From Meiothermus sp. (GTDB lineage Bacteria; Deinococcota; Deinococci; Deinococcales; Thermaceae): 64,000 nt of DNA. The stretch is taken from assembly GCA_026004095.1 (NCBI GenBank), contig BPIL01000010.1, positions 62,001 to 126,000 of the forward strand. Direction: 5' to 3'. Of the stretch, positions 11,151 to 38,216 are shown piece after piece. The translations under genes and the position numbers were made by a program. The first letter of the stretch is position 1. Each line of letters begins with the position of its first letter. Below the pieces are notes generated by a model. The model searched no databases, had not been told where the DNA came from, and saw only the letters and a program-made list of their open reading frames with translations.

Positions 11151-11223
11151 CCTGTAACGGCTGGTACAGCAAAAAGAGCCGCCCTGTTCAGTTAGACAGG
11201 CCGGGCTGCTATCATTAGTCAGA

Positions 11224-11244
11224 TTTTAGATTTATAATCTAAAA
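11224..11244. promoter_or_regulatory. 21-bp palindrome, predicted GntR operator of the Gfo/Idh/MocA gene
   Basis: Half-sites TTTTAGATT and AATCTAAAA around TAT form a perfect inverted repeat ending 3 bp before the ATG. It contains TATAAT, and a second -10-like TATCAT lies just upstream (11210-11215), so a bound protein would occlude the promoter. A closely related palindrome controls the operon at 34132. Confidence 0.7.
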
Positions 11245-11247
11245 ACT

Positions 11248-12465
11248 ATGAAACGCAACAAGGAGTTTGCCAACCGCCTCCACGCGCTCACACCCAAGTT
11301 TGCCTACATCCCGCAGGAAGACCGCTTCCTGATGAACCCCGGCCCCCTCAAGTACCGCTTCAATGTGATTGGGGTGGGGGTCAACGGACAGGAGCACATC
11401 CGGGTGACGCTGCTCGAGGGCCGCTGCACCGTTCACGGCGTCTACGACCCCAACCCCAGTAGCGTGGAGGCCGCCCGGCGCATCAAGGCCCAGTTCACCG
11501 AGGAACCCCTGGTGGTCTACGAGAGCCTCGAGGCCGCCTGCCACGACCCCGCGGTGGACGGGCTGATCATCTGCACCCCCAACCACACCCACCTGGAGGT
11601 GCTGAAGGTGGCCGCCCAGTCGGGCAAGCACATCCTCCTGGAAAAGCCCATGGCCACCAACCTACCGGACGCCTACGAGATCTGGCAGATTGCACAGAAT
11701 TACCCCAAGGTGCTGCAAATCGGCCTGCAGTACCGCTTCAAGCCCATCTACGTGGAGGCCATCCACGAGGCCAAGGAACGCAAAAGCCTGGGCGAGATCA
11801 AGACCATCACCATCCTCGAGCACCGCGAGCCTTTCCTGGACAAAGTAAAGCAGTGGAACAAGTTTTCCAAGTACTCCGGCGGCACCCTGGTGGAGAAGTG
11901 CTGCCACTACTTCGATTTGTTCAATCTGTTCGCCGAGTCGCGCCCGGTGAGCGTGTACGCCTCGGGCAGCCAGGCGGTGAACTTCCGCGACTTCGAGTAC
12001 GGCGGGGAGAAATCGGACATCCTGGACAACGCCTTTGTGATTGTGGAGTACGCCAACGGCATCCGGGCCAACTTTAATCTGTGCATGTTCGCCCCCATGG
12101 TCTACGAGGAAATTGTCATCTGCGGCGACGAGGGCCGGCTCAAGGCCAGCGAGGGCGTGAACGGGCAGGCCTACTCCAAGTGGGAGAACTACCTCGAGGT
12201 CATCTGCCTCCCCGACCGCACCTCCCGCACCATGACCCCCAGCTACCCCGCCCTGATCGAGGAGAGCGGCCACAGCGGGGCCACCTACTACGAGCACCTG
12301 CGCTGGATCGAGGCCATGGACGGCTTACCCAGCAAGGCCGCCACCGCCGAAGAGGGCTTCTGGAGCGTGGTGGTGGGGGTGGCCGCCGAGGAATCGGTGA
12401 AGCGGGGGGAGAAGGTGTGGGTAAAGGAGCTGCTCGAGGCCAATGGGCTGGGGCATTTGATATAA
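11248..12465 (+). CDS. Gfo/Idh/MocA oxidoreductase, candidate NAD-dependent sulfoquinovosidase
   Basis: A 405-residue Gfo/Idh/MocA-fold protein. The Rossmann N-terminus has NVIGVGVNGQEH, the nucleotide-proximal motif is ILLEKPMATN with the conserved Lys, and the active-site region contains GGTLVEKCCHYFDLFNLF with its His. There is no signal peptide, so it acts in the cytoplasm with NAD(P). The 21-bp operator matches the one at the predicted sulfoquinovose operon. NAD-dependent sulfoquinovosidases (GH188) are known from this fold and use a transient redox step to cut the glycoside, so that role is proposed here. It could instead be a sugar or inositol dehydrogenase. Fold assignment is strong; substrate is inference. 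Confidence 0.8.
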   Translation: MKRNKEFANRLHALTPKFAYIPQEDRFLMNPGPLKYRFNVIGVGVNGQEHIRVTLLEGRCTVHGVYDPNPSSVEAARRIKAQFTEEPLVVYESLEAACHDPAVDGLIICTPNHTHLEVLKVAAQSGKHILLEKPMATNLPDAYEIWQIAQNYPKVLQIGLQYRFKPIYVEAIHEAKERKSLGEIKTITILEHREPFLDKVKQWNKFSKYSGGTLVEKCCHYFDLFNLFAESRPVSVYASGSQAVNFRDFEYGGEKSDILDNAFVIVEYANGIRANFNLCMFAPMVYEEIVICGDEGRLKASEGVNGQAYSKWENYLEVICLPDRTSRTMTPSYPALIEESGHSGATYYEHLRWIEAMDGLPSKAATAEEGFWSVVVGVAAEESVKRGEKVWVKELLEANGLGHLI

Positions 12466-12636: not shown

Positions 12637-15600
12637 TCAGTGCAGTATACGCTCGATATAGGAATCTTTGTCTTCATCCTGGAATACGATATGCCGTCGG
12701 AGCATCTCCACTTTGTTGATACCCCACTGCTGCTGCATCACGTGCGACGGCGTATTCGAGATAATAAAAGACTCTAGCACGACGTTTGGGTCATTCAGCC
12801 GCTGCTCGATCTCCTTAATGGTCTGATAGAAATAAATCTTTGGGTCTTGTAGCCCCACGTTGCGGATCCCCTTGGGATCCACAAAAGTAATGCGCTGTTG
12901 ATTGCCTTCGATGATCCATAGGATGAAATCGGGATGAAAATTGCCAGCCTCGAAAAACCCTAGGCCACGACCCCTACTCAAATTACGCAGCAAGTACAGC
13001 TCTTTGCCCTCAAAATAGTCGCACCTAGCGTTGTAAAAAGCCCTCAGATCTTCAACGAAGCGGCGCTCGCCCTTGTTAAGGGGCGCCGGAGAAATCTCAA
13101 CCACGCCACTGTCGAGGAAAAGCAAAGGTTGATAAAGATGCTGATCGAACCAGATGGCTTTGATGCCTTGAAACTCCCAGGGCTTTAGATGACCACTCTC
13201 AATGGCTTTCTTAAGCTCGTTCAATTTGGCGACAATCTCTTGCTGCGACTCTTCGATAAGGATGCGGTAGCCATATTCTGTTTTCGTCCCGCGTAGGATG
13301 CTCGGAAAGTTGGGATCGTCTTCGCGGAGATTCTGATATTCCAAGTGCGGCAGCTCCCACTCCCGCTTGCGGAAGCTGTAATAGCGCTCCACGTACTTGC
13401 GCAACAGCGCCTGCGCAATCTCCTGCCAGACACGCACCTTGTCAAATGAGTCGAAGGCCAGCTCCGATTCTGGAATGAGCAGTTGATACCAGCTCGTGTC
13501 GCTCAGCAGCTTCTCGATGGCGGAACGCGGAAGGTTGAGGTTGTGCCAACCACGCTCAGCCTTAAAGCGCTCCAGGTCAAAATAGAGCCTATCCAGGTCG
13601 AGGAATGCAATATGGCGAGGGCTTAGATACGCTTTGTTCGCCGTAGCTTCGCTCGCATCACCCGCAATTCCGGCCGACTTCATTGCCTGAATCTTCGGGT
13701 ACCAGTTGAGCACGACGGGATTTTTTTGTAAGTACGCCGGCGGCGCGTCGATCGTGGGCACGGGGCCGAGAGTGCGGAAGGCATTGCCGAATTCGGTTCG
13801 CACGCCGTTGATCTCTGGCTTGAGACGGATCATCTTGAGCGGGCGCGTTCCCAGATTCTTAATAATGGGCAACACGAATTCGATGCGCTGCTCGTTGGTC
13901 GGCAACCCCTCTTCCTCGAGGAAGTCGCGGAACTGGGCCATGTAGTCGGCGCGGATGCCAAAAATGTGGAGCGTCTCGAGCATCTCAATGTGCTTCGGAC
14001 GTTCCAGACCATCCGGCAAAGGTGTGCAGCTGCTGCGTTTAAGGCTCATACCGTAGCCCTTGAGCCGCACCCCACGCCCAAAAAGTTGAATAATCTGCGC
14101 GCCCTCACTGCGCCCCACGTTCATTAGCCCCATCGTGCTCACGCGCCAACTGCTCCAGCCCTCGGTGAACTTCTTCGAACCGATAAGCACGTTAACGGTT
14201 GAATTGGGCTTTTGCAGCTCGTGGAAGAGCGAGCCGGAGAACTCGCGCTCGGAGACTGTCAGGCCCTTCTCTTCGCAGAGCTTGATCAGCTTGGCATCAT
14301 CGCCCACGTTGATGACGCCGAAGGGCTCGTTCTCACCCACGCGCAGCGCGATCTCGCCACTGACGCCTTTCAGATTCTCGACATGCAGCATCCCGCCGTT
14401 CGGTGCGTTGAAGAGTACAGCGAGTGTTTCGGCAAAGATCTGTTCGGGCGAGAGGCCGCTGGCGTTCAAATAGGTGAAGCGACCGGCAAAGAGGTTCTTG
14501 CCGCCTGCAGTGAGCAAGCCTTCCTCCAGCAAGCGCCGGATGTGCTCAATGCTGGCCGTGCGGTTGGTCACATAGCGGTTCAAAAACCGCAGGATCTCGA
14601 CGATGTCGGAAGCATCGCGGGTGGCCAGCGTCGCGGTGACACTCCCGCCGACGAAAACCCACAGCGGCCGCTCCAGGTTGAAGGGCCGCAGCTCCGCTTC
14701 GCGTTCGCGATAGAGCCGCTGCTGCTGGAAGAAAGCGAGCAGGCAGGCCGTAAGGTAGCGCTGCATCCACTCCACGTCACTGCCATCCTCCAGGTTGAGA
14801 ATTTGGTAGTCCTTGCCGAAGCCATCGCTGTAGAACCAGCGATAGGAATAGTCGAAGAGGATGCTACGCGCGTAGAGATCGGTGAGCTTTTGGCTGCCCT
14901 TGACGGCCTGGCCGAAGGTAGCGGAATACTCGAATGAAAAGCCTTTTTCGCACAAGGCGTTGCGGTATTTCATCCAGGCGCCGTCGCCGCCGGCCGAGGC
15001 ACCGCGGTGCCCTTCGTCCACCAGCACCAGGTTGTTGCCCTCGAAGGCGTCCACGGCGACCGCCTTCTCGCCCATCTCCTCCTTGAGCTTGGTGATCTCC
15101 AGAATCTCGACCGCCTGCCCGGCAAACAGGCTGCGGCCTTCTTTGCTAAAGATCTCGGCATCAATGCCCGATTTTTCGAACTCGCGCAGGTGTTGTTGCG
15201 AAAGCCCCTCGTTGGGTGTGAGCAGAATGACACGGTTTAGCTCACGCATGCGGCCATGGGTTTCCAGGAAGCGCCGGTACTGCCGGATGTGCGCATGCAT
15301 CAGCAGCGTCTTGCCGCTCCCTGTAGCCATCCAGAAGGCGAGTTTGTTGAGCTGAAGGCGCGGGTCTTCGTCGGAGCTCAACTCACCAATCTTTTCGCTG
15401 GGTGGGAGCGTTTCGTTCAGCGCGCGAATCTGCCCATTGAGTGCGTCTCGCAGCGCTTCAGGGTCGCGGAAGTAGCTGTCCAGGTAAATCTCGGTGAAAA
15501 GCAGTGCCAGATACTGGAAGTACTTCCAGACGATGGGGGCTTCCCCATGCACCAGACGCCGTTCGTTGAGTTGTTGAGTTACGGAGACAATGGCCTGGTC

Positions 15601-15878
15601 GTACTCCAGCAGCCGTTCATCGGACAGATGGGGCCGACGTTCTGCCGGTAAATGCAGGCAGAGGGCGTGGTGGAAGCGGTGGATGTTGTTCTCATCCAGC
15701 CCTTCCAGCGCTTCGTCCTTCAGGTGCTCGGCGAGCTGCTTGAAGTTCTGTACCCCAAAGAGTGAAAGCAACCACCGATGCAGCACCAGCTTGTGGTTGA
15801 AAGGCACCGCGGCACCTCCATTGCTGCGGCGGGCACGGGTCGGGGCAGCGGTGGTGGTACGGGGACGTCCGCGCGGCA

Positions 15879-15879
<1 letters not shown>
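12637..15879 (-). CDS. Type III-like restriction enzyme, Res subunit (helicase-nuclease)
   Basis: A 1080-residue superfamily 2 helicase with a C-terminal nuclease. The N-terminal third leads to Walker A MATGSGKT near residue 190, and the DEGH box is in [11 protein letters not shown] helicase C domain contains the arginine-finger region [13 protein letters not shown]. Near the C-terminus HPDFILWI followed by ITFVDPKG fits a PD-(D/E)xK nuclease core. It would translocate and cleave DNA together with Mod. The ATG overlaps the mod stop (TGATG), so translation is coupled. It appears intact, but its partner Mod is interrupted by an IS. Confidence 0.88.
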
Positions 15880-19067
<3,188 letters not shown>

Positions 19068-19079
19068 AGATTCATTCCC

Positions 19080-19640
19080 CTAACATCCCCCCGGCCACCA
19101 GTGAAATAGGGTGTAGCTCTGGATAAGCGCGGGCTGGGTTTGTAGGTAAGCGCACCGGGCTTCCACCTTGGCCCACAGCTCCTCTTCATCCTGCACCTGC
19201 CCATTGGCCACGACCGCGTCAATGAGCCCCCAGGTTCGTTCTACCGGCTGCAACTCGGGCGAGTAGGGTGGCAGATAACACAGCCCCAGGCCCTTGGCTG
19301 GCTCCACCCGCCCCGAGGTGTGCCAGCCAGCCTGATCCAGCACCACCAGTACCAGCTTGCCCGCCCCCGCCCCCCGTAGCCGGGCAAAGGCCTCCAACAC
19401 CAACTGGAACCCCTCCACCGAGACCGAGGGCAGCAGCCAGTACTCGCTTTCCCCCGTACCCGGTCTTATGAAGGCGTACACATACAGCCAGCGATAGCGG
19501 GGCCGCTCCTGCGCTAGCGGCGTCCTCCCTCGCAAGGCCCATACCCGTCGGCGGATGGGCTTCAGCCCTATTCGGTGCTCATCAAAGCCCCACACCTCCA
19601 ACTCCAGTTCAGGAAAGAGCAACCTGAACAGGAAAACCAT
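19080..19640 (-). CDS. IS630 transposase, DDE catalytic part (second frame)
   Basis: 186 codons encoding the DDE domain. The acidic residues are in VWGFDEHR, in VLDQAGWH and in YLPPYSPELQPVERTWG, the last being the hallmark of IS630/Tc1 elements. It lies in the -1 frame relative to the helix-turn-helix part and is probably produced only as a fusion by frameshifting at an A7 run (minus strand) just upstream. The element looks potentially active. Confidence 0.88.
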   Translation of the reverse strand: MVFLFRLLFPELELEVWGFDEHRIGLKPIRRRVWALRGRTPLAQERPRYRWLYVYAFIRPGTGESEYWLLPSVSVEGFQLVLEAFARLRGAGAGKLVLVVLDQAGWHTSGRVEPAKGLGLCYLPPYSPELQPVERTWGLIDAVVANGQVQDEEELWAKVEARCAYLQTQPALIQSYTLFHWWPGGC

Positions 19641-20152
19641 CAGAAAGAGCTTTTTTTGAAAGCCTCCTGCCGCTTCGCATCCGCCTCCCGGTGGCGCGGC
19701 CGGGGGCGCAGCGGGGCCAGGCCCAGGCGACGCATCCAGTACCAGGCCCGCCGCCCATCCACCGGACGTCCCAGCCTTTCAGCCAGCCACTCCGCAGCGT
19801 TGCGAATGCTCCAAAGCCCGTCCCTGGGATGGGGCTGGAGGAGGGCCTGGCGGAAGCCCTCCTGGAGTTCGGGCGGTACGAGGGGGGCCCGGCCTTTGTT
19901 CTCGTGCCGCAGATTCTTCATGGGCAGGCCCTGATTGTAGCGGTGGATTACCTGACGCACCCAGCGATCGGTATAGCCCAGATTCCTGGCTACCTCGGGG
20001 ATGCTCTGACCCCTGGCCAGCAGCCAGAGAGCGTGCCAGCGGGCGCGTTCGGTGTGGTCTTGGGACTCCCGGTAGAGGGCGTGGAGGTTATCCGGATGGT
20101 GTCGCAGTTGGAGTTCCAACCGGGGGCGGCGCTGATGTTGGGCCAGTTGCAT
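19640..20152 (-). CDS. IS630 transposase, N-terminal helix-turn-helix part (first frame)
   Basis: 170 codons with a helix-turn-helix region (ARGQSIPEVARNLGYTDRWVRQVIHRYNQ), then a winged-helix segment DGLWSIRNAAEWLAERLG typical of IS630 transposases. It stops shortly after an A7 tract (T7 at 19651-19657 on the plus strand). A -1 shift there reads through into the DDE frame (…FKKKLFLMVFL…). Programmed frameshifting is common in this family; a plain inactivating frameshift is the alternative. Confidence 0.87.
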   Translation of the reverse strand: MQLAQHQRRPRLELQLRHHPDNLHALYRESQDHTERARWHALWLLARGQSIPEVARNLGYTDRWVRQVIHRYNQGLPMKNLRHENKGRAPLVPPELQEGFRQALLQPHPRDGLWSIRNAAEWLAERLGRPVDGRRAWYWMRRLGLAPLRPRPRHREADAKRQEAFKKSSF

Positions 20153-20177
20153 GGCTCCATTTTAGTGGAAAGAGTCT

Positions 20178-20305
20178 TGAAGATTTCTTATTACTTCCGT
20201 GTCGCGGGCGCGCAGAATGCGATATATGCCAAAGTCCAGATCAGGCTGGTCGAGTTGAAAGAGTTCGCGTAGCAGGTTTTTGAGTTTTTCGTAGTTTCGG
20301 CTCAT
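20178..20305 (-). pseudogene. Type III-like Mod, 5' fragment upstream of the IS
   Basis: Encodes MSRNYEKLKNLLRELFQ and then LDFGIYRILRARDTEVIR, the characteristic N-terminus of large type III-like Mod proteins. AAGGA precedes the ATG. The frame stops shortly after entering the IS. It starts 31 bp after the helicase gene, indicating that helicase, mod and res were one operon. Confidence 0.82.
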
Positions 20306-20336
20306 GGTTGTTTCCTTCTTAATAGCTAGGTCTGGC

Positions 20337-23225
20337 TCACACCAACGTCCAGCGAATTGTGAACAATGCTTCCTGGGTAACGTGCTGTACCAGACGCTGC
20401 TCGAGCTGGGCGATCAATTGGTCGCGCTTTTCCATGATTTCATCCTCCACCTGAAAGATCACCTGACGTTGTCGGCGCAATTGGCGCTCGAGCTCACGAA
20501 TGCGCTCTTGAATAACGTGCTGTTCGGCAAGGGTTGCTGCTTGCGCAGCCTGGCGGCGCTGCTCCTTGAGCTGGGCCTTGGTCTGCTGGAGCGCTTGCTC
20601 TGCAAGCCTTACTTGATCGTCGGCCCAGGCGTCCAGTTTATCGCGCTCGGCGGCAAACTGACGCCGGTTGCGAGCTTCGATTTGAGCGAGCAGATTCCGC
20701 TCTGAAGAGGCCAACGCTGCCTCGAGACGCATGGCGACGGACTCTGGCACAGGACAAGGCTCCACCATCTCGGCGGCCAGATCAAAAAACCGCCGGCACT
20801 GAGTATCGTCCAGCTCCATACCACCGTCCGTAAAGCCAGCCAGCAGAAGGTGATCCTCATCTTCGATAGCCTGCACGCTCACTCGACGGCAGACGAGCCA
20901 ACCACTTTGACCCACTAGCGGCGTCAGCACGGCGATGTTTTTGCCGCTCCCACCGTAGTCGAAGCGCAAGACGGCGGGCGGAGTGTCGAGGCCACGAGCC
21001 TGTTCGATCAACCGCTGTGCCAACGGGTGACCGATGCGGTAGATGTTAGCGTCCGCCACGTTGCGCCCTATGCGGTAGGGGCCAGGATGGATCGCTTCAC
21101 CTGGGAAGGGATTAGTGTGCAGTGTGAAGCTGTAGCCGTCGCCATCGAAGTGGGCGTAGTCCTGCAAGAGGTAGCGGGTGAGTGCCCAAAGCTGCTGATG
21201 ATAGCGATTAAGTAGGTTGTGGGTGTCGATGCGCACACGTTCGACCACCTCTTGGTCGAAGTTTTCCAGGAGCTTGTCGCGGGCATCGCGCCGAGCTGAG
21301 GCGATCTGTTCTTCAAGCTCGCGCTGGAGTTGGTCGAACTCGAATTGGATCTGCTCAGGCGTGCGGCACTTCTGGTATATCTCAGCGATGCGCTTTTCGA
21401 AATCCACGCCCGATTCGATAGCACCCAGCACCTCATCGCTCGCACCGAATACGCCGTTGAACAGGCGAAACTTTTGGTCGAGCAGCTCATAGACGCGCCG
21501 GTCAGCAGCATTGGCCTTATTTAGGAAGTTGACCACCACCACGTCGAACTGCTGGCCATAGCGGTGACAACGGCCAATACGCTGTTCGATGCGCTGCGGG
21601 TTCCAGGGCAAATCGTAATTGACCACCAGGTTGCAAAACTGGAGGTTGATCCCTTCGGCGGCGGCCTCGGTTGCGATCATTATGGCGGCCTCGTCGCGGA
21701 AGTGCTCCACGATGGCTGCGCGCATATCGGCACTGGGGGAACCGCTCACGCGATCTGTACCGCGGTGGCGCTCGAGCCAGCGCTGATAGATTTCGCGTGA
21801 GAGCGGATCGTTGTTCGCACCGTTAAAAAGCACTACACGACCGCTGAATTCGGTCTGCTGTAAGAGATCAAACAGATATTGCTGCGTGCGGCGCGACTCG
21901 GTAAAAATTACAGCTTTGGGCTGCATCGCTGAGCCGCCCTGGGCTTCTCGTGCCTGGGCAGCGACCTCGAAGCCGCGTCGCAACGCGGTAAGTAGTACCT
22001 CGCCCTTGGCGTTCTTGACGATGGACTTAGCAAGCCGCAGGAAGCCAGCGAGCTCCTCCTTCTCGCGTTGCAGCTCGGCCAGTTGCTCAGGCGTGAGCCT
22101 AGTGGGGGTCTGGCCCAGCTCTTCGTCGTCTTCCTCCCATTCGTCGGCGAGTTCATCGTAATCCTCGTAATCCTCGGCGATCTGGTCAGTCGGCGGGGTG
22201 GGTATCTCGGCCTGCCGGGCAACGGCTTCCAGGCGATTGACCAGTGTCTCGAGCGTGCCGGCAATGGCATAGGTCGAAGATGCCAAGAGCTTGCGGAGAA
22301 TCAGTGTGACCAGCTGGCGCTGGCTTGCCGGAAGTGCATACAATTTGTCGCGTTGGAGGTAAGCCGAAACCCGCTCATAAAGCTGCTGCTCATCGGGCGT
22401 AGGTACGAATTCCTGAACCAGCGCGTGGCGGTTAGTATAGCGCACGTACTCGAGTACCTGCTTACGCAGCGTGCGTTTGCAGATCGGCGCGAGGCGTGCC
22501 TTGAGCTCGGCGTATGCTTCGCCCTCACCGTCTCCCAAGCGGGCATAGCGGGCACGGAAGCTGTCGAGGCTGCCAAAAGCATAGTCGTCGATGATGCTGA
22601 CCAGCCCATAAAGTTCCAGCAGCGAGTTCTGCAACGGTGTCGCCGTAAGCAGCAGCTTTGGGTAGGGCGCGACGGCCTGTTTAATGGCGAGCGCAATCTT
22701 GCTGGAGTTCTTATAAACATTACGTAGGCGGTGGGCTTCGTCAATTACAACCAAATCCCAAGTCGTTTGTCGTAAGTAGGGCTCCTTAGCACGAGCGAAC
22801 TGATAGGAGCAAATGACCACCGCGTCCTGCTGGAAGGGATTTAGGTTACCAGACCTGATCTGCTCATTGAAAGTACGCAGCTCCAGAATGGCTGTAGGCA
22901 AGTAAAACTTGTCCTCCAGCTCCTGGCTCCATTGTTTGCGCAGATTAGCAGGGACGATAACCAATAGCCGCCGGCGGCGCTCCGCCCACTTTTGAGCGAG
23001 CAGCAGGCCCGCTTCGATGGTTTTACCCAACCCCACCTCGTCCGCGAGGATAGCGCCTTTGGAAAACGGATTACGGAAGGCGAAAAGCGCTGCGTCCACC
23101 TGGTGGGGATTGAGATCTACCTGGGCATCGGCGAGGGCAGATCCCAGCTTTTCCACGCTGTCAGAGGCATGGCGGCGGGTCAAGTCATAAGCCAGGTAGC
23201 GTGCGTGATAGTTCGTGATCGTCAT
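20337..23225 (-). CDS. SNF2/RapA-like helicase of the restriction island
   Basis: A 962-residue SF2 ATPase. The N-terminal part shows the Q-motif region LNPHQVDAALFA, Walker A ADEVGLGKTIEAG, DEAH in LVVIDEAHRLRN, and TATPLQNS. The helicase C domain has IATEAAAEGINLQFCN and RIEQRIGRCHRYGQ. The last 150 residues are charged and coiled-coil-like. DISARM DrmD and related defence helicases have this architecture, but no DISARM DrmA/DrmB partner is present. It precedes mod and res in what was one operon. The start at MTITNYHARYLAY overlaps the stop of the HsdM remnant. Confidence 0.85.
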   Translation of the reverse strand: MTITNYHARYLAYDLTRRHASDSVEKLGSALADAQVDLNPHQVDAALFAFRNPFSKGAILADEVGLGKTIEAGLLLAQKWAERRRRLLVIVPANLRKQWSQELEDKFYLPTAILELRTFNEQIRSGNLNPFQQDAVVICSYQFARAKEPYLRQTTWDLVVIDEAHRLRNVYKNSSKIALAIKQAVAPYPKLLLTATPLQNSLLELYGLVSIIDDYAFGSLDSFRARYARLGDGEGEAYAELKARLAPICKRTLRKQVLEYVRYTNRHALVQEFVPTPDEQQLYERVSAYLQRDKLYALPASQRQLVTLILRKLLASSTYAIAGTLETLVNRLEAVARQAEIPTPPTDQIAEDYEDYDELADEWEEDDEELGQTPTRLTPEQLAELQREKEELAGFLRLAKSIVKNAKGEVLLTALRRGFEVAAQAREAQGGSAMQPKAVIFTESRRTQQYLFDLLQQTEFSGRVVLFNGANNDPLSREIYQRWLERHRGTDRVSGSPSADMRAAIVEHFRDEAAIMIATEAAAEGINLQFCNLVVNYDLPWNPQRIEQRIGRCHRYGQQFDVVVVNFLNKANAADRRVYELLDQKFRLFNGVFGASDEVLGAIESGVDFEKRIAEIYQKCRTPEQIQFEFDQLQRELEEQIASARRDARDKLLENFDQEVVERVRIDTHNLLNRYHQQLWALTRYLLQDYAHFDGDGYSFTLHTNPFPGEAIHPGPYRIGRNVADANIYRIGHPLAQRLIEQARGLDTPPAVLRFDYGGSGKNIAVLTPLVGQSGWLVCRRVSVQAIEDEDHLLLAGFTDGGMELDDTQCRRFFDLAAEMVEPCPVPESVAMRLEAALASSERNLLAQIEARNRRQFAAERDKLDAWADDQVRLAEQALQQTKAQLKEQRRQAAQAATLAEQHVIQERIRELERQLRRQRQVIFQVEDEIMEKRDQLIAQLEQRLVQHVTQEALFTIRWTLV

Positions 23226-23659
23226 GGGCCCAAAACCGTCATTACGCAAAACAAGGTGTGCTCGCGTTCGATCTCCTTCTGCTGCTTCTTCCAGTCCACG
23301 CCAAAGGGCGGGTTGGTGAGGAAGTAGTCGAAGGTCTCATCCGAGAAATGATCCTCAGTAAACGTATCACCGAAGCGGATTTTATCGCTATCGTCGTTGT
23401 GGTCTACCTGCTTGATGAGCATGTCGGACGCGGCGGTGGCGAAGGCGCGCTTGTTGTAGTCCTGCCCAAGTTCGTTGAAGCAGCGGATCAGGTCGTATTC
23501 CGCGAGCACTTTGGCCTTGGTGAGCGCAAGCACGCAATCGAAGCGGCGCATCACGGTCATGGGCAGCATCACGCGGTCGTACTGCGGCGGGCGATACGGC
23601 CCGCGCAGCGGGTCGGCGATCTGCCAGATCAGGTTGGCAAAATAGTTGTGGTCAGGCAT
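23222..23659 (-). pseudogene. HsdM remnant with internal deletion (type I methylase)
   Basis: A 145-codon frame beginning as a type I DNA methylase ([35 protein letters not shown]) and then jumping to ASDMLIKQVD… and TNPPFGVDWKKQQKEIER, i.e. motif IV. The intervening region with SAM motif I is missing, and the protein ends soon after motif IV. It cannot methylate DNA. Its stop codon overlaps the helicase ATG, so translation through it may still couple helicase expression. Confidence 0.8.
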
Positions 23660-24039
23660 AGATCCGGTCTCACTCCCGCTGTCTTGTACCCTTTACTATA
23701 GTAACTTCGCTGGTGATCAAGTTTCTCGCGTAGAGCGCACCCACTCCAACCGAAATTATTGCTGCCGACCGGCGGCACCCAGAAAATGTTCTGGGCGCGG
23801 TATTCGTCGGGGTCTTCGGGGTCGGCGCCTTGCGCGCGTTCGGCCTCGAGCTTCCTGTGCAGCTCTTCGAAGGCGTCGGAGATGTACTTGAGGAAGATCA
23901 GGCCCAGCACCACGTGCTTGTACTCGGCGGCGTCCATGCTGCCGCGCAGAGTATCGGCCATCTTCCAGAGTTCGGCCTCGTAGCCGACGTTGGCGGCGGT
24001 GGTTGGGGTGGATTGCGGGTTGGATTTTCGCCTCGGCAT
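23629..24039 (-). pseudogene. Second HsdM remnant, N-terminal piece
   Basis: The first about 85 codons match the HsdM N-terminal domain ([39 protein letters not shown], ending NIFWVPP). The frame then runs into unrelated sequence before stopping, and its tail overlaps the next remnant. It belongs to a different HsdM lineage from the neighbouring fragment, so two methylase genes have decayed here. GAGGT precedes the ATG. Confidence 0.75.
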
Positions 24040-24205: not shown

Positions 24206-25195
24206 TCAGCCTGCGACGCCCTCGAGCCGCCAGTCCACCTCGGGGTAGATGGGCCGGATGCCGTGCAGGAGTTCGTTGAGGCGGTGGAGGGTCTCGAGGC
24301 CCTCCTCGCGCAGGGCCTCGCGCAGCCGGGAGCGGTCGGGGTAGAAGCGCAGGGGGTGCTGCCAGACCGCGCGGCCCGCCAGGTAGCCCCGCGCACCGGC
24401 CCGCAGGGCTGCTTCCAGCACCTGCACGAACTGGTCGGCGTTCAGGCCGCCCGAGAGCAGCAGCCAGGGGGCCGGGAGCTTGCTGTACTCCTTCATGTCG
24501 GCCTCGAGGTCGTCCAGCGAGTAGCCCTTGCCGCCCCACTCCTTCACCAGCCCCGCCGCGCCGGGGAAGGCCAGCTTGTAAAGGTCAATGTGAAAACCGG
24601 GGTCGGCGAAGGCCGCGGCGATTTCCAGCGACATCTCGCGCAGCTTGGCGTTGTAGGTAGGGGCATCCTCGCCGGGGAGGGGGTAGGGCAGCACCTCAAA
24701 GATGAAGAGGCGGTCGGCCTTTCGGCAGGCCTCGCCCACGCTTCGCACAAAGTTCAGTTGGTGCTCGGTTATTTCGGGCGGGGCATCGGGGCGGTGCCAG
24801 GCCAGAAGCTTCAGGCCATCGGCCCCCATGCGCACCGCCTGCTCCACGCTCCAGCCGGGAATCATCGCACTTTTGCGCCAGCCGCCCTCTACGGTCTCGA
24901 AGCGGTGGTGCTCGAGGGTCAGCATCAGGCCGGTCTCGCGCGGCAGAACGGGCATGGCGGCAGGAAAAGCGTAGTGCGGGTCTATCAGGATTCCGGTCAC
25001 GGCCCGGGCCAGGATCTCGGCCAGCAGGCCCTTGAGTTCGGTCACTTCGGGCCCCACACTCTCCGGGTCGCGGCCCAGGGCCTGGGCGACGATCTGCATC
25101 AGGGGCGGGCGCTGGTCAATGGCCAGGGTGCCAAAGCGCATGGCCCCATCGCCAATGCGGGCATAGGCACGGGCTTTTGCTGGGGTGGTTTTCAT
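24206..25195 (-). CDS. LacD/YihT-like class I aldolase, predicted sulfofructose-phosphate aldolase
   Basis: A 329-residue TIM-barrel aldolase of the LacD/YihT family. The N-terminal TLAIDQRPPL matches the family VDQR block, and ILIDPHYAF follows. The Schiff-base lysine is in DLYKLAFP, and the C-terminal PWLLLSGGL and GYLAGRAVW blocks resemble YihT. In LacD the substrate is tagatose 1,6-bisphosphate; in YihT it is 6-deoxy-6-sulfofructose 1-phosphate, cleaved to DHAP and sulfolactaldehyde. The neighbouring YihV-like kinase and sulfolactate genes favour the second. GAGGAG precedes the ATG. It is the last gene of the operon. Family firm, substrate inferred. Confidence 0.85.
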   Translation of the reverse strand: MKTTPAKARAYARIGDGAMRFGTLAIDQRPPLMQIVAQALGRDPESVGPEVTELKGLLAEILARAVTGILIDPHYAFPAAMPVLPRETGLMLTLEHHRFETVEGGWRKSAMIPGWSVEQAVRMGADGLKLLAWHRPDAPPEITEHQLNFVRSVGEACRKADRLFIFEVLPYPLPGEDAPTYNAKLREMSLEIAAAFADPGFHIDLYKLAFPGAAGLVKEWGGKGYSLDDLEADMKEYSKLPAPWLLLSGGLNADQFVQVLEAALRAGARGYLAGRAVWQHPLRFYPDRSRLREALREEGLETLHRLNELLHGIRPIYPEVDWRLEGVAG

Positions 25196-25235
25196 GCTTC
25201 TCCTCGTGTATCTAGCTTGCTTAGGGTTTTGGGGT

Positions 25236-26084
25236 TCAGGGCAAGGAAGCCAGCAAGGCCCGCACCTCGTCCCGGCGCGGGGGGCTGGCCTGGGCGCAGT
25301 GCAGGGCGGCGGTCGCCGCGGCAAACCGCAGCGCCGACACCTCGTCCTGCCCTTCGGCAAGGGCCAGGGTAAAGGCCCCGTGGAAGACGTCCCCCGCCCC
25401 GGTGGTGTCGCGCACCTGCACCGGGTAGGCCGGCAGGTGTCCGCCCGCGTAGGCCACCCCCTGGGCCCCCAGGGTCACCGCGGCGAACACCCCCAGGGCT
25501 TGCAGTTGGGCCAGCAGCGCGTCCACGCCGCCTTTCTGCACGGCCAGCTCCTCCGAGGCCACCACGTGCGTGGCCACCTGGGTGAGCATCCAGTCCTCGT
25601 CGCGGTCGCGATCCAGATCCAGCACCACCGGGAGGCCCCGCGCGCGGGCGGCCCGGCCCAGGCCATACCCCGCCGAGGCCCAGCGCCCGTCCAGCAGCAA
25701 CGCACCGGTGCCTTCGAGCAGGCCTTCCTCGCCCAGCACCAGCCCGTCGGGCAGCTCGGGCCGGTAGGGGAAGATGTAGCGCTCGCCCTCCGGCGTGACC
25801 AGCACCGCCGAGACCGGGGTGGCCGCGCCAAGCTGGAAGTGGGCCTTAACCCCTTCGGCCTCGAGCATCTCCTGCAGGCGTGCTCCCGTGGCATCGTGGC
25901 CCCGGCGGCTCACCAGATGGGCCTCGGCCCCCAGCCGGGCCGCTGCCACCGCGGCCACCGCCGCCGGCCCCCCGACGGTCTCGCGGTAGCCCAGCACCCC
26001 GGTGCGGCTGGCGCGGGGTGGGAAGGTCTCGATGTAGTAGCGCTGGTCCAGGTTGGCCCAGCCCACGCTCAGGATCTTCACCAT
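25236..26084 (-). CDS. PfkB/YihV-like sugar kinase, predicted sulfofructose kinase
   Basis: A 282-residue ribokinase-family kinase. The first signature is ETVGGPAAVAAVAAARLGA near residue 35, and the second, with the catalytic Asp and anion hole, is VRDTTGAGDVFHGAFTLAL near residue 230. The wording of both blocks, and DGRW near residue 125, resembles YihV, the 6-deoxy-6-sulfofructose kinase. It should phosphorylate C1 of the isomerised sugar for the adjacent aldolase. The ATG lies inside the last codons of the isomerase gene, so translation is coupled. Another ketohexose remains possible. Confidence 0.85.
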   Translation of the reverse strand: MVKILSVGWANLDQRYYIETFPPRASRTGVLGYRETVGGPAAVAAVAAARLGAEAHLVSRRGHDATGARLQEMLEAEGVKAHFQLGAATPVSAVLVTPEGERYIFPYRPELPDGLVLGEEGLLEGTGALLLDGRWASAGYGLGRAARARGLPVVLDLDRDRDEDWMLTQVATHVVASEELAVQKGGVDALLAQLQALGVFAAVTLGAQGVAYAGGHLPAYPVQVRDTTGAGDVFHGAFTLALAEGQDEVSALRFAAATAALHCAQASPPRRDEVRALLASLP

Positions 26085-27400
26085 ACCAGTCGGTTTTCCT
26101 CGGGCCGGGCGGGCAGCACCTCCAGGCCCAGCCAGGCGCACATCTCCAGCAGGGCCTCATCATGCGCACCCATCCCTACGGCCAGGTGGTGGGGGATGCG
26201 GTGGTTGAACCAGCTCGCCAAAAACTGCCGGGGGGTGAGGGGTTCGGCGGCCCAGGTGGGGCGGGTGAGGTAGCCAGAGTCCCCGTCGTAGCCTTTCTCA
26301 CCGCTCAACACGCCCCCGTGCACCACGGCTTTGCGGCCCGGCAGCAGGCGCAGGCCGCTGATGGGCCCTGCCCGCAGCGCCATGTCGCGCACGGCGGGCA
26401 GGTGGCGGTTGAAGTGCGGCACCAGCCGGGTGGGGCCCGCGGCCCAGGCCTGGGGTGCTTCGCCCCCGTGCCAAAGCATCACCCCTTTGGCCGAAAAGTG
26501 CGAGATGTCCAGCAGAATGGCCGGCCGGCCCGAGATGGCCTTCAGGGCTAGCTGGCTGGCCAGGCCCATCACGTCGCCCTCGGGGGCCAGGGTGTAGCCC
26601 GCATCGGCCAGGCGGGCCATGGCCGCGTAGGCCATCACCCCTGTTCGGTCGGGGATCTCCGGCCACTCCCGCAGGGCCACCCCGTCGTAGGGCCGGGCCA
26701 GTTGCTCTAAGGCCAGCTCGAGGCGGAAGCTTTCGCGCAACTGCTCCAGCGGGTACTCGGAAAGCTCGCGGAACTCTGCAATCCGCGCCTCCAGCTCGGC
26801 CTCTGAGACCGCTGCCAGGGCCTCCCACAGCTCGGCCAGCTCGGCTTTCTCCACGGTAAGGCCGGTCTCGGGCAGCGACCCAAAGGCAAAAAAACCGGGC
26901 GCGTGGCCGCCCAGCCAGAGCACCCGGCCTTCGCGCAGCACCTTCACACCCCGCAGGGCCTGCAGGGTGAGCTTGAGGCGGGCCTGAAACCAGGCATCCT
27001 CCACCGAGCCGTAGAACCACTTGGTGGGTTTCGGGGCCAGCGAGACCCCCAGGTTGAGGCCGCAGACCGCGTTCTGCGGCAGCGGGCCGCTGTCCCACAC
27101 CTCGGGCAGGGCCCACAGCCCCACCGGGATGGGCAGTTCCAGGAGCGGCAAAAAGGCATCGCCGGTGGCAAAGGTCACGTGCTGCACCATCAGCAGATCC
27201 AGCCTGGCGTCCTGGGCCGCGCGGGCCGCCGCCTCGGCCTGGGCGGCGTCGGCCACCGGCTCGGCCACATAGGCCAGCTCGAAGCCCAGCTTGGGGCCCA
27301 GGGCCTCCAGGGCCTGGCGGGTGGTGGGCTCGAGGCCCAGCCTGGAACCCCTAAACAGGGGCCGCACAATGGGAACAAGACCGATTCGGAGGTTTTGCAT
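26078..27400 (-). CDS. L-fucose isomerase-like protein, predicted sulfoquinovose isomerase
   Basis: A 440-residue member of the L-fucose/L-arabinose isomerase-like superfamily. The N-terminal half is a Rossmann-like domain (LMVQHVTFATGD, PIPVGLWALPE). The C-terminal part has LLDISHFSAKGVMLWHGGE and NHRIPHHLAVGMGAHDEALLEM, with His and acidic residues placed as in the metal site. Such enzymes convert an aldose to a ketose. Upstream of a ketose kinase and aldolase it should supply the ketose. YihS, the classical sulfoquinovose isomerase, is absent. I recall fucose-isomerase-like enzymes taking this role in alternative sulfoglycolytic pathways, which should be verified. Confidence 0.82.
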   Translation of the reverse strand: MQNLRIGLVPIVRPLFRGSRLGLEPTTRQALEALGPKLGFELAYVAEPVADAAQAEAAARAAQDARLDLLMVQHVTFATGDAFLPLLELPIPVGLWALPEVWDSGPLPQNAVCGLNLGVSLAPKPTKWFYGSVEDAWFQARLKLTLQALRGVKVLREGRVLWLGGHAPGFFAFGSLPETGLTVEKAELAELWEALAAVSEAELEARIAEFRELSEYPLEQLRESFRLELALEQLARPYDGVALREWPEIPDRTGVMAYAAMARLADAGYTLAPEGDVMGLASQLALKAISGRPAILLDISHFSAKGVMLWHGGEAPQAWAAGPTRLVPHFNRHLPAVRDMALRAGPISGLRLLPGRKAVVHGGVLSGEKGYDGDSGYLTRPTWAAEPLTPRQFLASWFNHRIPHHLAVGMGAHDEALLEMCAWLGLEVLPARPEENRLVW

Positions 27401-27419
27401 AATCTCGCTCGAGGCCAGC

Positions 27420-28250
27420 CTATCCTTTCACGCCCCCCTGGGTCAGGCCGCCCACCACCCGCTCCTGGAAAATCGCAATCACCAGGGCCACCGGCACCAG
27501 CGCGATGATCAGCGCCGCCGAGATCAGCGGCCAGGGAAAGGTATACTCACCCTGCAGGAACTGGATGCCCACTGGCAGGGTGCGCATGGCCTGCGAGGGC
27601 AGCAGGGTCAGCGACAGGAGGAACTCATCCCAACTGTTGACAAAAGCCAGAATGCTGGCAGTAAAAACCCCCGGCGCGGAAAGCGGCACCACAATGCGCC
27701 ACAGCGCGCCCAGGCGGGAGCAGCCATCCACCATGGCGGCCGACTCCAGATCCTTGGGGATGCCCTGAAAAAAACTCACCAGCACCAGCGTGGCTACCGG
27801 GATGGACAGCGCGGCATGGGGCAGAATCAGGGCAATATAGGTGTTGCGCAAGCCCAGCGCCAGCACCATCTCGAACAGCGGCAGCAACAGGGTCACGGTA
27901 GGGAACATCGAAACCCCCACCAGCAGAGAAAAAATCAGGGTTTTGTAGGGGATGCGCAGACGGGCCAGGGCGTAGGCCGCCAGCGCCGATACGAACACAC
28001 ACAGCAGGGTTGCGCCCACGGCCACAACCAGGCTGTTGAGGAAGTAGCGCCCGATGGGGGCCCTAGTAAGGGCCTGCACGTAGTTTTGCAGGGTCGGGTT
28101 CTCAGGCAGCCAGGTAATGGGAATGCGGGTGAGTTCTGCCTCGGTTTTGAACGAGGTCAGGAGAATCCAGACCGCCGGAAAAAAACCGTTGATAACAACG
28201 ATACCTGCCGCAATCCAGAGCCATATACGGGGACTGTTGAGTTTCACCAT
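27420..28250 (-). CDS. ABC sugar transporter permease, MalG type
   Basis: A 276-residue inner-membrane permease with about six helices and the MalG-type EAA loop (ESAAMVDGCSRLGALWRIVVPLSAPGV). It starts at MVKLNSPRIW. It pairs with the MalF-type permease and the exported binding protein of the operon to import a carbohydrate, predicted to be sulfoquinovose or a sulfoquinovosyl glycoside. No ATPase gene is present, so a shared MsmX/MalK-type ATPase encoded elsewhere is expected. It ends 19 bp before the isomerase gene. Confidence 0.9.
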   Translation of the reverse strand: MVKLNSPRIWLWIAAGIVVINGFFPAVWILLTSFKTEAELTRIPITWLPENPTLQNYVQALTRAPIGRYFLNSLVVAVGATLLCVFVSALAAYALARLRIPYKTLIFSLLVGVSMFPTVTLLLPLFEMVLALGLRNTYIALILPHAALSIPVATLVLVSFFQGIPKDLESAAMVDGCSRLGALWRIVVPLSAPGVFTASILAFVNSWDEFLLSLTLLPSQAMRTLPVGIQFLQGEYTFPWPLISAALIIALVPVALVIAIFQERVVGGLTQGGVKG

Positions 28251-28328
28251 ACCCTCCCGGCTCGAGCAAAGGCACCCAGGGGCCGGCCGGACTCCTCCCA
28301 CCCATACCCCAGACGGCGGGACTCTAGC

Positions 28329-29228
28329 TTAATCATCGGCCCCCCTCACATACCGCAGGTAGATCAGCGTGACCGCCAGGCTGATCAGGAACATCAGCAC
28401 CGCCAGGGCCGAACCATAGCCAAAGTTGAGGTTCTCGATGCTCATGGTACGCACATACATAGCCAGGGTTTCGAAGGAACTACCCCCATTCTGCATAGCA
28501 AAGGGGATGTCGAAGGTCTGGAAAGCCGTGATGGTGCGGAAAATCGCCGCTACCAGGATGGCCGGGGTCAGGAGCGGCAGGGTGATCCGCCAGAAGCTCT
28601 GCCAGCGGTTGGCCCCGTCCACCGAGGCCGATTCGTAGAGTTCCTTGGGAATCACCTGCAAGCCCGCCAGCAAGATAAGGGCCACAAAAGAACTGCTTTT
28701 CCAGATAATGCTGATGCAAACGGCCCAGAACAGCAGCTCCGGCGTGGTTACCCACAGCAGCCGCTCACCTCCTAAGCGCACGATCACATCGTTGACCACC
28801 CCATACTGGCTGTCAAAAAACCATCTAAAAATCAATCCGGCAAATACCAGCGGCAAAGCCCAGGGTAGCAGCAGACCCAGGCGCACCGGCCACTTAACGC
28901 GAAAAGGCAGGTTGGCCAGCAAGGCCAGCAAAAGCCCCACCACCAATGCCCCCGGCACCGTCACCAGTACAATCAAAAGCGTGTTCCACAATGCCGTCCA
29001 GAAGCGCTCATCGGAGAGGGCCTGGGCAAAGTTGGCGAAACCAACGAACACCGGGTTGCTTCCGGTTTCATCGGTCAAGCGGCGCTGGAACAGGCTGGTA
29101 TAGATTAAGCGTGCAACCGGATACAGCGCCACCGCCCCCAGCAGCAAGGCCGCCGGAAGCAGCAGCCAGAAGGCCAGGGCGCGCTCGCTCAGGTCGCCAA
29201 AGCTGCGGCGGTATTTGGGCTGAATCAT
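28329..29228 (-). CDS. ABC sugar transporter permease, MalF type
   Basis: A 299-residue permease with six hydrophobic helices. The conserved EAA loop, which contacts the ATPase, reads ESASVDGANRWQSFWRITLPLLTPAI near residue 200. GGGAGGT stands 7 nt before the ATG at 29228, which is therefore preferred over a GTG two codons upstream. It forms the heterodimeric channel with the next gene product. A 187-bp gap with a strong hairpin separates it from the binding-protein gene. Confidence 0.9.
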   Translation of the reverse strand: MIQPKYRRSFGDLSERALAFWLLLPAALLLGAVALYPVARLIYTSLFQRRLTDETGSNPVFVGFANFAQALSDERFWTALWNTLLIVLVTVPGALVVGLLLALLANLPFRVKWPVRLGLLLPWALPLVFAGLIFRWFFDSQYGVVNDVIVRLGGERLLWVTTPELLFWAVCISIIWKSSSFVALILLAGLQVIPKELYESASVDGANRWQSFWRITLPLLTPAILVAAIFRTITAFQTFDIPFAMQNGGSSFETLAMYVRTMSIENLNFGYGSALAVLMFLISLAVTLIYLRYVRGADD

Positions 29229-29378
29229 GCGCACCTCCCGGTAAGTTCTTGGCCCAGCCCTTCGGTCGTCAGCATCCCGCTATGCCTGGAGATGGTTGGG
29301 TCGGTTCTGGGCCGCTTTTGCATGGCTGGTTCCAAAAAAAGTTGTTCTTGTGTTGTGCAGACAAAAAACATGGGTTGA

Positions 29379-29405
29379 GGGGTAGGAGCACCCGGCCCCT
29401 ACCCC
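29379..29405 (-). other. Intra-operon hairpin between binding protein and permease genes
   Basis: GGGGTAGG and CCTACCCC form an 8-bp perfect stem with an 11-nt loop just after the binding-protein stop. A TGTTTTTTG run follows at some distance. Such elements often stabilise or partly terminate the message, keeping binding protein in excess over permeases. Confidence 0.55.
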
Positions 29406-29415
29406 TATCAGCTAT

Positions 29416-30675
29416 TTATCGGCCGCTGTAGATGGCCTGCAAGCGGTTCACGATGTCGCGGGCACCCTGCTCGGGGGTTTTCTGGCGGGCCAGCACCTGG
29501 TTGGTGTTAACCCGGATGGCCTCAGAGATCTCAGCATAGCGCGGGTGTTGGGGGCGGGCGCGGGCCGCCTGCACCACGGGCAGGGCCTGGGCAAACCAGG
29601 GGTTCACCCGCAGAATGTCGGCATCGCGGTACAGCGAGGGGAAGACCGGCAGGTTGGAAGCATCAATGGCCAGTATCTTGGAGACCTCCGGGCTGCTCAG
29701 GAAGCGCACCAGCCGGTGGGCCTGTGCTTTGTTGCGGCTGAAGTCGGAGACGGCCCACTGCCAGCCACCCAGGCAGCTCGCCTGGCGGCCCCCAGGGAAG
29801 GCAGGCAGGGGCACCACGCCAATCTTGCCCTTGACCTGGCTGTCGGGGTCGTTCTGGAACCTATTCCAGGCGTAGGCAAACAGGGTGCCGAAGATCCAGC
29901 GCCCGGCCTGCATCTCCTGGCGGATGGTGTCTTGGGGTTTTTCGGCCATGTTGGGCGGCGAGACCCGCCGATCCATCAGGCTGACCCAGAACTGCAAGGA
30001 GCGCTGGGCCTGTTCCACGGTGAGGCTGAACTGGCCCTGGGCATTGGTCACATCGCCGCCGGCAGCCCAGATGGGCAGCAAGAAGGTACAGACCGTTCCC
30101 TCGATGGGTGCGCCGATATAGCCGATGCCGTTGAGGTTGGGGTTGTTCTCGCGCTGCAGGATGGTCTGGGCCTGCTGGATGACCTCATCCCAGGTGGTGG
30201 GGGGCTTGAAGTTGTACTTCTCCAGCAGGTCGGCGCGGTAGTACAGGAACATCGCGTCGGCAAAGGCCGGCAGGGCCACCAGTTGCCCGTTGATCACGTT
30301 GGCCTGCGAGTAAGCCGGCAGGTACTGCCGCAGCAGGTTCTGGCGCGAGGCGGCGGGCAGATACTTGTCCAGGGTATCGGCCCAGCGGCTGGCCAGGTAC
30401 TGGGCGGGGCGGATAACGTCGATCAGGATCACATCGATGCTGGGGTCGCGCGAGGCCAGCACGGTGGTGAGGTACTGCTGCTGCTGATCGGAGGTGGCCC
30501 CACCCACCTCGATCTCCACCCGCACCCCTGGGTTGCGCTGCTGGTAGATGTCCAGAATTTTGCGCATTACATCCGGGCGCTGCTGCCCCCCCACAAACAC
30601 CCGCAAGCGGGTTTGCTGCGCCAGCGCAGTAGACATCACCAGCACAGCGACCAGTAGCCAGAACAGCTTCTTCAT
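29416..30675 (-). CDS. ABC sugar transporter substrate-binding protein
   Basis: A 419-residue family 1 extracellular binding protein. The signal peptide MKKLFWLLVAVLVMSTALAQ ends at an Ala-Gln junction and has no lipobox. The mature protein begins TRLRVFVGGQQRPDVM, with the DIYQQRNPGVRVEIEVGG block typical of sugar binders. It would capture the substrate outside the membrane and deliver it to the two permeases downstream. Its ATG overlaps the ComC-like stop (ATGA). Substrate is inferred from context. Agrobacterium uses a comparable binding protein for sulfoquinovosyl glycerol, but similarity cannot be judged by eye. Confidence 0.88.
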   Translation of the reverse strand: MKKLFWLLVAVLVMSTALAQQTRLRVFVGGQQRPDVMRKILDIYQQRNPGVRVEIEVGGATSDQQQQYLTTVLASRDPSIDVILIDVIRPAQYLASRWADTLDKYLPAASRQNLLRQYLPAYSQANVINGQLVALPAFADAMFLYYRADLLEKYNFKPPTTWDEVIQQAQTILQRENNPNLNGIGYIGAPIEGTVCTFLLPIWAAGGDVTNAQGQFSLTVEQAQRSLQFWVSLMDRRVSPPNMAEKPQDTIRQEMQAGRWIFGTLFAYAWNRFQNDPDSQVKGKIGVVPLPAFPGGRQASCLGGWQWAVSDFSRNKAQAHRLVRFLSSPEVSKILAIDASNLPVFPSLYRDADILRVNPWFAQALPVVQAARARPQHPRYAEISEAIRVNTNQVLARQKTPEQGARDIVNRLQAIYSGR

Positions 30676-32593: not shown

Positions 32594-32596
32594 GGT

Positions 32597-33775: not shown

Positions 33776-34107
33776 CACTGCCCCCCTTTGGCCCTGGGCT
33801 TTTGGCCCTTGCCCTTGCTGCCGTAATCCCAGCGCAGGGTGCGGATGTTGTGCACGTGTACATAGCCACCTTTTTTGACGGGCTGGGTCATGCGGCCCAC
33901 CTTTTCGCCGTACTCGATAACCACATGGCCCTCGGGCATATCCCTGAGGGCGATTTTGTGCCCCAGCGGAATATCCTCCAGCAGTTTGACCCTGTGGACT
34001 TTGCCGCCCTCGAGGCTGTGAATGACCAGCTCCTCGCCAGCTTTCAAGTCGGCCACTGCAACCGCCACGTCATCGGTGCTTTTATGCGCTAAGGCCCTAT
34101 GTGCCAC
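33775..34107 (-). CDS. SuyA-like SAF-domain small subunit
   Basis: A 110-residue SAF-domain protein, the small subunit of UxaA/SuyA-type lyases. Visible features are VAVADLKAGEELVIHSLEGG, the conserved DIPLGHKIALRDM block with His, and the VIEYGEKVGR motif. It is completed by the SuyB-like protein encoded next. The GTG at 34107 is chosen because AGGAGGG lies just upstream. It is the first gene of the ten-gene operon and sits behind the predicted GntR operator. Confidence 0.83.
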   Translation of the reverse strand: MAHRALAHKSTDDVAVAVADLKAGEELVIHSLEGGKVHRVKLLEDIPLGHKIALRDMPEGHVVIEYGEKVGRMTQPVKKGGYVHVHNIRTLRWDYGSKGKGQKPRAKGGQ

Positions 34108-34131: not shown

Positions 34132-34150
34132 GATTTTATATCTAAAATCT
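34132..34150. promoter_or_regulatory. Operator palindrome in the divergent gntR-suyA control region
   Basis: GATTTTA and TAAAATC flank TATC, a perfect inverted repeat. The 19-bp minus-strand sequence shares an AGATTTTAGAT core with the palindrome at 11224 and agrees at about 16 of 19 aligned positions. It covers the spacer and -10 of the operon promoter, as expected for a repressor site. It is the likely autoregulatory and operon site of the adjacent GntR protein. Confidence 0.72.
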
Positions 34151-35740: not shown

Positions 35741-35756
35741 GACTGCTCCTGCGATT

Positions 35757-36659: not shown

Positions 36660-36669
36660 GGGCCTTCTC

Positions 36670-38097: not shown

Positions 38098-38216
38098 AGA
38101 AGGCATCCTATCCCGCCGATGCCCCTGCCTCAAGCCCGCGGTGGAGGTTCTGTACAGCCCGATTGGGCATTCGGCCCCAAATCCAGGTTATAGCGGGCGG
38201 CTATACTCGGAGTCCG

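Follow-up and report, generated by a model that had tools for sequence, protein, structure and literature searches.

What is the function of a Gfo/Idh/MocA-type gene (sqgA, 11248-12465, plus strand) that is encoded near a putative sulfonate operon (24206-34107, minus strand) in Meiothermus sp.? The stretch of 64,000 nucleotides that we analyzed (hereafter the window) belongs to a 137-kb contig from a draft genome of 2.77 Mb. Sulfoquinovose (SQ) ranks among the largest pools of organic sulfur, and the majority of its known degraders go no further than a C3 or C2 sulfonate. A sequence-only reading of the window had proposed that sqgA encodes a NAD-dependent sulfoquinovosidase of GH188, a family published in 2023. 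Other traits by which GH188 is recognized are a homodimer formed via the C-terminal domain and a hydrolysis of SQ glycosides that depends on NAD and incorporates deuterium at C2.

Family placement and predicted substrate contacts of the sqgA protein

The sqgA gene is a complete open reading frame with an ATG start and encodes 405 amino acids. Its product carries the Pfam domains PF01408 and PF02894 (GFO_IDH_MocA), which represent the two-domain Gfo/Idh/MocA fold with an N-terminal Rossmann domain. The AlphaFold2 model (monomer, built on 47 sequences, mean pLDDT of 90.1) and its Foldseek matches agree with the Pfam domains, so the fold named in the sequence-only reading stands. In a sequence search against the whole PDB, the best matches all belong to GH188 (8qc2 with 218 bits, 8zn9 with 217 bits and 8qc3 with 212 bits), while the highest-scoring superfamily member outside GH188 reached 68 bits. 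Foldseek comparison of the model with the PDB returned GH188 chains exclusively at ranks 1 to 12 (E-values of 1e-40 to 1e-34, TM of 0.76-0.82 by query length, 32-35% identity), followed by other Gfo/Idh/MocA enzymes with E-values of 4e-27 or weaker. Together with the contact residues described below, these scores bear out the proposed membership in GH188. A quick tree, a check that had been suggested earlier, groups the protein with SqgA and gave no placement outside GH188. As its outgroup branches are very long, the bit scores and not the tree carry the weight of the family placement, and the tree was relied on solely for placement within the sqgA subclade.

Using the published contacts of ArSqgA, which binds SQ via K107, Y136, E189, H193 and H321 and the sulfonate group via R166, the L170 backbone and K172 (PMC10755693), we transferred the positions to the sqgA protein through an alignment and scored their conservation in 109 homologs. 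The counterparts of Lys107, Tyr136, Glu189, His193 and His321 are K133, Y162, E216, H220 and H342, which are invariant in the 109 homologs. The sulfonate residues Arg166, Leu170 and Lys172 correspond to R193, L197 and K199, so the sulfonate-binding residues for which the sequence-only reading had proposed a search are present when mapped by alignment. They are invariant in the 109 homologs except for one replacement of Leu by Ile, and are missing in three other Gfo/Idh/MocA paralogs of the same genome. Two residues ahead of the sulfonate Arg, E191 is also invariant in these homologs. GH188 has Glu163 where GH109 has its catalytic Tyr (PMC10755693 numbering); the counterpart of E191 is counted as residue 164 in ArSqgA, and equating the two assumes a shift in numbering.

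The protein is 32-35% identical to the characterized GH188 enzymes and falls in a distinct deep subclade that is set apart by a conserved N-terminal extension. To our knowledge, no member of this subclade has been assayed. Closer inspection of the segment (11248-11352) showed the motif F-x-Y-[IL]-P-x-x-D-R-[FY]. It comprises about 24 residues as counted from PDB numbering and by that count is lacking in the Arthrobacter enzyme. Residues 1-30 of the model have low to moderate confidence (block pLDDT of 48-70). As a speculation, this arm may lock the cofactor, as in glucose-fructose oxidoreductase.

The closest characterized systems are SqgA of Arthrobacter sp. U41 (8QC3/8QC6) and of Flavobacterium sp. 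K172 (8QC2/8QC8), which resemble the sqgA protein in fold, NAD site, and SQ and sulfonate contacts (PMC10755693). They differ from the Meiothermus protein in sequence (about 34% identity), in subclade, in the N-terminal extension and in host, which is here a thermophilic member of the Deinococcota. A marine sulfoquinovosidase (8ZN9; 217 bits and about 33% identity), whose entry is titled 'A vast marine sulfonate-based carbon cycle fueled by novel sulfoquinovosidases', is likewise similar in GH188 fold and contacts and belongs to a different subclade.

We also considered a GH31 sulfoquinovosidase in place of sqgA. The one full-length GH31 protein in the genome is alpha-glucosidase-like (360-549 bits to alpha-glucosidases compared with about 100 bits to YihQ), and four genomes of the genus that lack any GH31 still keep sqgA. 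As this GH31 protein resembles an ordinary alpha-glucosidase, no sulfoquinovosidase candidate other than sqgA was recognized in the genome. The same situation, an SQ catabolic cluster in a genome without a recognizable GH31 sulfoquinovosidase, was described for the two SqgA enzymes above (PMC10755693).

The putative sulfoquinovose operon and its operators

The operon is encoded on the minus strand, beginning with homologs of the small (SuyA, SAF domain, PF08666; 33775-34107) and large (SuyB, PF04295 and PF20629; 32597-33778) subunits of (R)-sulfolactate sulfo-lyase, a pair also found beside sqgA in Chloroflexota and Salibacterium. These are followed by two candidate sulfolactate dehydrogenases. 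The first is an SlcC-like D-2-hydroxyacid dehydrogenase (PF02826; 31667-32593), a candidate (S)-sulfolactate dehydrogenase. The second is a ComC-like member of the Ldh_2 family (PF02615, 296 bits; 30672-31766), whose top NCBIfam model is L-sulfolactate dehydrogenase (NF040650, 194 bits, under the cut-off of 500). An ABC transporter is represented by a sugar-binding protein (PF01547; 29416-30675) and two permeases (PF00528; 28329-29234 and 27420-28301). The next gene encodes a candidate, distantly SftI/SqvD-like sulfoquinovose isomerase (26078-27400), and its sole NCBIfam match is the sulfoquinovose isomerase model NF048012 (E-value of 6.9e-16, 58 bits against a cut-off of 700). The last two genes encode a PfkB kinase (PF00294; 25236-26141), a candidate sulfofructose kinase, and a LacD/DeoC-type class I aldolase (PF01791; 24206-25213), a candidate sulfofructose-1-phosphate aldolase that matches NF009498 with 228 bits, over the cut-off of 184. 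The start of the aldolase was set by family alignment inside a longer open reading frame (24206-25360).

At the family level, the operon therefore contains the kinase (PF00294) and SFP aldolase (PF01791) families of sulfo-EMP, and separate SuyA (SAF) and SuyB (GD_AH) proteins together with two sulfolactate dehydrogenases. We detected no sulfolactaldehyde dehydrogenase or reductase in the operon, and the operator matches in 18 genomes of the genus point to no fourth recurrent target. The best aldehyde dehydrogenase encoded elsewhere in the genome is 38% identical to the enzyme of an Oceanobacillus cluster described below, and the others are unremarkable. As no sulfolactaldehyde dehydrogenase was recognized, we name the front end sulfo-EMP-like and not a complete member of that pathway.

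In this genome, sqgA is convergent with the operon and separated from it by an island of about 11.4 kb (12637-24039). The sequence-only reading had placed the two side by side apart from this island. This arrangement holds here and in several other Meiothermus genomes, where sqgA directly adjoins the operon and no island is present (L031, L032, L035, L036, L037 and L041). It is not universal, as sqgA and the operon are found on different contigs in 7 of 22 genomes; some of these contigs are short, so that a physical distance can be taken as certain only where the contigs are larger. The island encodes a type III restriction enzyme and methyltransferase and a DrmD-like SNF2 helicase, as well as transposase-like pieces (19080-20152) and short type I methyltransferase fragments (23222-24039); relatives lack it or carry a different one.

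Two operators were identified in the window. The first, AGATTTTAGATTTATAATC (11221-11239, plus strand), lies upstream of sqgA and is part of the palindrome TTTTAGATT-TAT-AATCTAAAA. The second, AGATTTTAGATATAAAATC (34132-34150, minus strand), lies between suyA (minus strand) and a gene for a GntR/FCD-family regulator (gntR, PF00392 and PF07729; 34185-34844, plus strand), the probable repressor of the regulon. They are identical at 17 of 19 positions and have the common core AGATTTTAGATWTAWAATC. The operator pattern has five overlapping matches in the window, compared with a mean of 0.00 in 100 shuffles, and the only mismatch-free places in the whole 2.77-Mb genome are those at sqgA and suyA/gntR (none for the reversed-pattern control). 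That sqgA and the operon have an operator in common, as first read from the window, is thus well founded. A third place with two mismatches (L051:5865-5882 in G000:C4, outside the window) is located just upstream of a gene for a TauE/SafE sulfite exporter (PF01925; L051:5907-6674), which makes the case for a regulon stronger than it was in the sequence-only reading.

When the core pattern was searched in 18 genomes of the genus, it gave 70 matches compared with one for the reversed control, and most of them fall in three recurrent places, upstream of sqgA, between suyA and gntR, and upstream of tauE. The tauE operator was confirmed in 16 of these 18 Meiothermus-like genomes, including this one, and was not found in the other two (G011 and G019). 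In most cases it reads ATTTTGAATCTAAAATC and is followed shortly downstream by a GTGGTATAA box. All 21 relatives that we examined have retained the operator ahead of sqgA, the two sister genera in a variant form, and it is present in each of the seven genomes that have sqgA and the operon on separate contigs. In a divergent genome, a stretch without matches to sqgA, the operon or tauE contains a palindromic operator-like sequence, GATTTTAAATCTAAAAT (L217, G012:C217:2603-2620).

The sqgA operator contains a TATAAT -10-like box (11233-11238), and the 9 nt between this box and the ATG suggest a leaderless transcript. The second operator overlaps the spacer and the -10 element of the TTGACC-17-TAAAAT promoter of the operon. 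This overlap of operators and promoters suggests repression, and the three transcription units are probably all repressed by a single GntR/FCD regulator via the common operator. Behind the regulator gene, a group of genes that is syntenic in several relatives (34841-38133) encodes a MurQ-like SIS protein, a BadF/BadG-type kinase and an amidohydrolase. These possibly function in amino-sugar recycling and are not obviously members of the regulon.

Relatives, known gene sets and rival explanations

We found sqgA in all 22 genomes of three Meiothermus-like genera (that of the window and two sister genera; 81-100% identity), but in none of 27 genomes of a Thermus-like genus nor in the one genome of a fifth genus of the same family. 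The protein of M. taiwanensis is 97% identical, and that of one complete genome (3,097,457 bp) is 100% identical. The operon isomerase and suyB are present in the same 22 genomes and in two others from other genera of the family (G040 and G049), which encode homologs of both without sqgA. Identities at these loci (L074/L099 in G049 and L075/L100 in G040) are 50% for the isomerase and 76% and 61% for suyB; the suyB frame of G040 holds two stops and looks decayed.

Outside the family, orthologs with 56-70% identity are encoded in Chloroflexota, Bacillaceae, Marinomonas, SAR324, Spirochaetes, Trueperaceae and some archaeal MAGs. The Thermaceae group branches within the Chloroflexota sequences of the tree, closest to hot-spring Roseilinea and related lineages, a position that suggests horizontal transfer. 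The suyA and suyB genes lie beside sqgA in many Chloroflexota, and SAR324-type loci carry the set of isomerase, LacD, PfkB, SuyAB, SlcC and ComC. In Oceanobacillus (L157), the ortholog (61%) directly precedes an isomerase that scores 756 bits with the curated SQ isomerase model, over its cut-off of 700, and the cluster continues with a phosphofructokinase, a class II aldolase and an aldehyde dehydrogenase. The corresponding isomerase in Salibacterium (L182) scores 798 bits with the same model. These neighbors tie the sqgA subclade itself, and not just the distant characterized enzymes, to sulfoquinovose. The published GH188 set has representatives in Salibacterium, Marinomonas and Chloroflexi (PMC10755693), which we infer to belong to the sqgA subclade.

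Among known gene sets, the GH188 'Y160' cluster of Actinobacteria bacterium IMCC26103 is nearly the same as that of the window, with a fucose-isomerase-like protein, SF kinase, SFP aldolase, SuyAB, a D-3-phosphoglycerate dehydrogenase-like protein and an ABC transporter (PMC11465081). It also lists an SLA dehydrogenase, whereas none was recognized in the operon studied here, and its enzyme has a Tyr at the Leu170 position where the window protein has the common Leu. The Tyr-variant group of GH188, considered for its matching gene set, was ruled out by this Leu (L197). The tandem sulfofucolytic-sulfolactate sulfolyase pathway of Paracoccus wurundjeri shares the SlcC/ComC/SuyAB back end and a TauE homolog in one organism, and there too no SLA dehydrogenase was identified, but it has an Entner-Doudoroff front end for sulfofucose and no identified sulfo-glycosidase (PMC12421959). 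The sulfo-EMP2 clusters of Bacillaceae (PMC12890257; loci L157 and L182) share the orthologous sqgA and an isomerase of the SftI/SqvD family. Their kinase belongs to the PFK family and they encode a class II aldolase and an aldehyde dehydrogenase, compared with the PfkB kinase and LacD-type aldolase of the window.

As a rival explanation, the sqgA protein could be a GH188-type NAD-dependent glycosidase that prefers the glycoside of another sulfo-sugar (a sulfofucoside or another sulfonated hexose), which the operon would then degrade. The LacD (tagatose-bisphosphate aldolase) group of the aldolase and the only distant resemblance of the isomerase to SQ isomerases would fit, as would the use of the same back end for sulfofucose by P. 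wurundjeri (PMC12421959). However, the contact to the C4 hydroxyl group (E189 in ArSqgA) and all remaining SQ contacts are kept, the SFP aldolase of sulfo-EMP is likewise a PF01791 protein, and the sulfofucose route is an Entner-Doudoroff pathway with different enzymes (PMC12421959). Moreover, sqgA orthologs adjoin curated SQ isomerases, and the documented abundance of SQ far exceeds that of sulfofucose. We consider this explanation unlikely, and rated sulfofucose below SQ as the substrate.

An ordinary Gfo/Idh/MocA dehydrogenase for inositol, levoglucosan or another polyol, placed under the same regulator by chance, would have the same fold, and the top NCBIfam model of the protein is indeed inositol 2-dehydrogenase. 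That match reaches 115 bits against a cut-off of 355, though, GH188 structures outscore every dehydrogenase, with a sequence lead of about 150 bits and fold E-values lower by about 13 orders of magnitude, and the sulfonate-binding triad is kept, so that we regard this as very improbable. Least credible of all is that the operon serves altronate/galactarate-type sugar-acid catabolism and the resemblance to GH188 is misleading: SuyB does belong to the galactarate/altronate dehydratase family, with galactarate dehydratase as its sole NCBIfam match (135 bits against a cut-off of 731), but a sulfite exporter lies under the same operator in 16 genomes, the Ldh_2 protein best matches L-sulfolactate dehydrogenase, and separate SuyA and SuyB with SlcC and ComC are the known sulfolactate arrangement (PMC12421959).

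We therefore predict with high confidence that sqgA encodes a GH188 NAD+-dependent sulfoquinovosidase (SqgA), the entry step of a sulfoquinovose regulon. Its placement in GH188 is supported by the agreement of sequence, predicted fold, catalytic and sulfonate residues, and genome context across phyla. The catalysis, the identity of the substrate (sulfoquinovosyl glycerol) and the direction of regulation are what we infer.

Predicted pathway and significance

By analogy with characterized GH188 members, the bound NAD+ would oxidize C3 of the sulfoquinovoside, the aglycone (glycerol) would be eliminated across C1-C2 and water added, and the ketone would then be reduced back with regeneration of NAD+, giving hydrolysis to sulfoquinovose as the net reaction. 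The operon isomerase would convert sulfoquinovose to sulfofructose, which the PfkB kinase would phosphorylate and the LacD aldolase cleave to DHAP and sulfolactaldehyde. After oxidation of sulfolactaldehyde to sulfolactate, SlcC and ComC would invert the sulfolactate through sulfopyruvate, SuyAB would cleave it to pyruvate and sulfite, and TauE would export the sulfite. We think it likely that Meiothermus and its sister genera are thermophiles in which a single cell mineralizes sulfoquinovosyl glycerol in this way, with pyruvate, DHAP, glycerol and exported sulfite as the products, using one GntR regulon of three transcription units and, for entry, a heat-stable member of a GH188 subclade nested among Chloroflexota sequences.

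GH188 and a near-identical actinobacterial gene set (PMC11465081) were already known, so that neither the family nor the gene set is new. The presence of front and back ends in one bacterium has been described as unusual (PMC12421959). Our literature search found no report of sulfoquinovose or sulfolactate catabolism in Meiothermus. As far as this search shows, two points are new: the host is a thermophilic member of the Deinococcota, and a conserved regulon of three parts joins the glycosidase to a sulfite exporter. Since the predicted sqgA shares its operator with the breakdown genes and the sulfite exporter, one hot-spring bacterium may take sulfoquinovose to sulfite. The regulon also offers a route to the enzyme that oxidizes sulfolactaldehyde in such pathways. 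If the prediction is true, the sqgA protein would be a thermostable enzyme of its GH188 subclade, and Meiothermus would feed on the headgroups of sulfolipids in hot springs rich in phototrophs.
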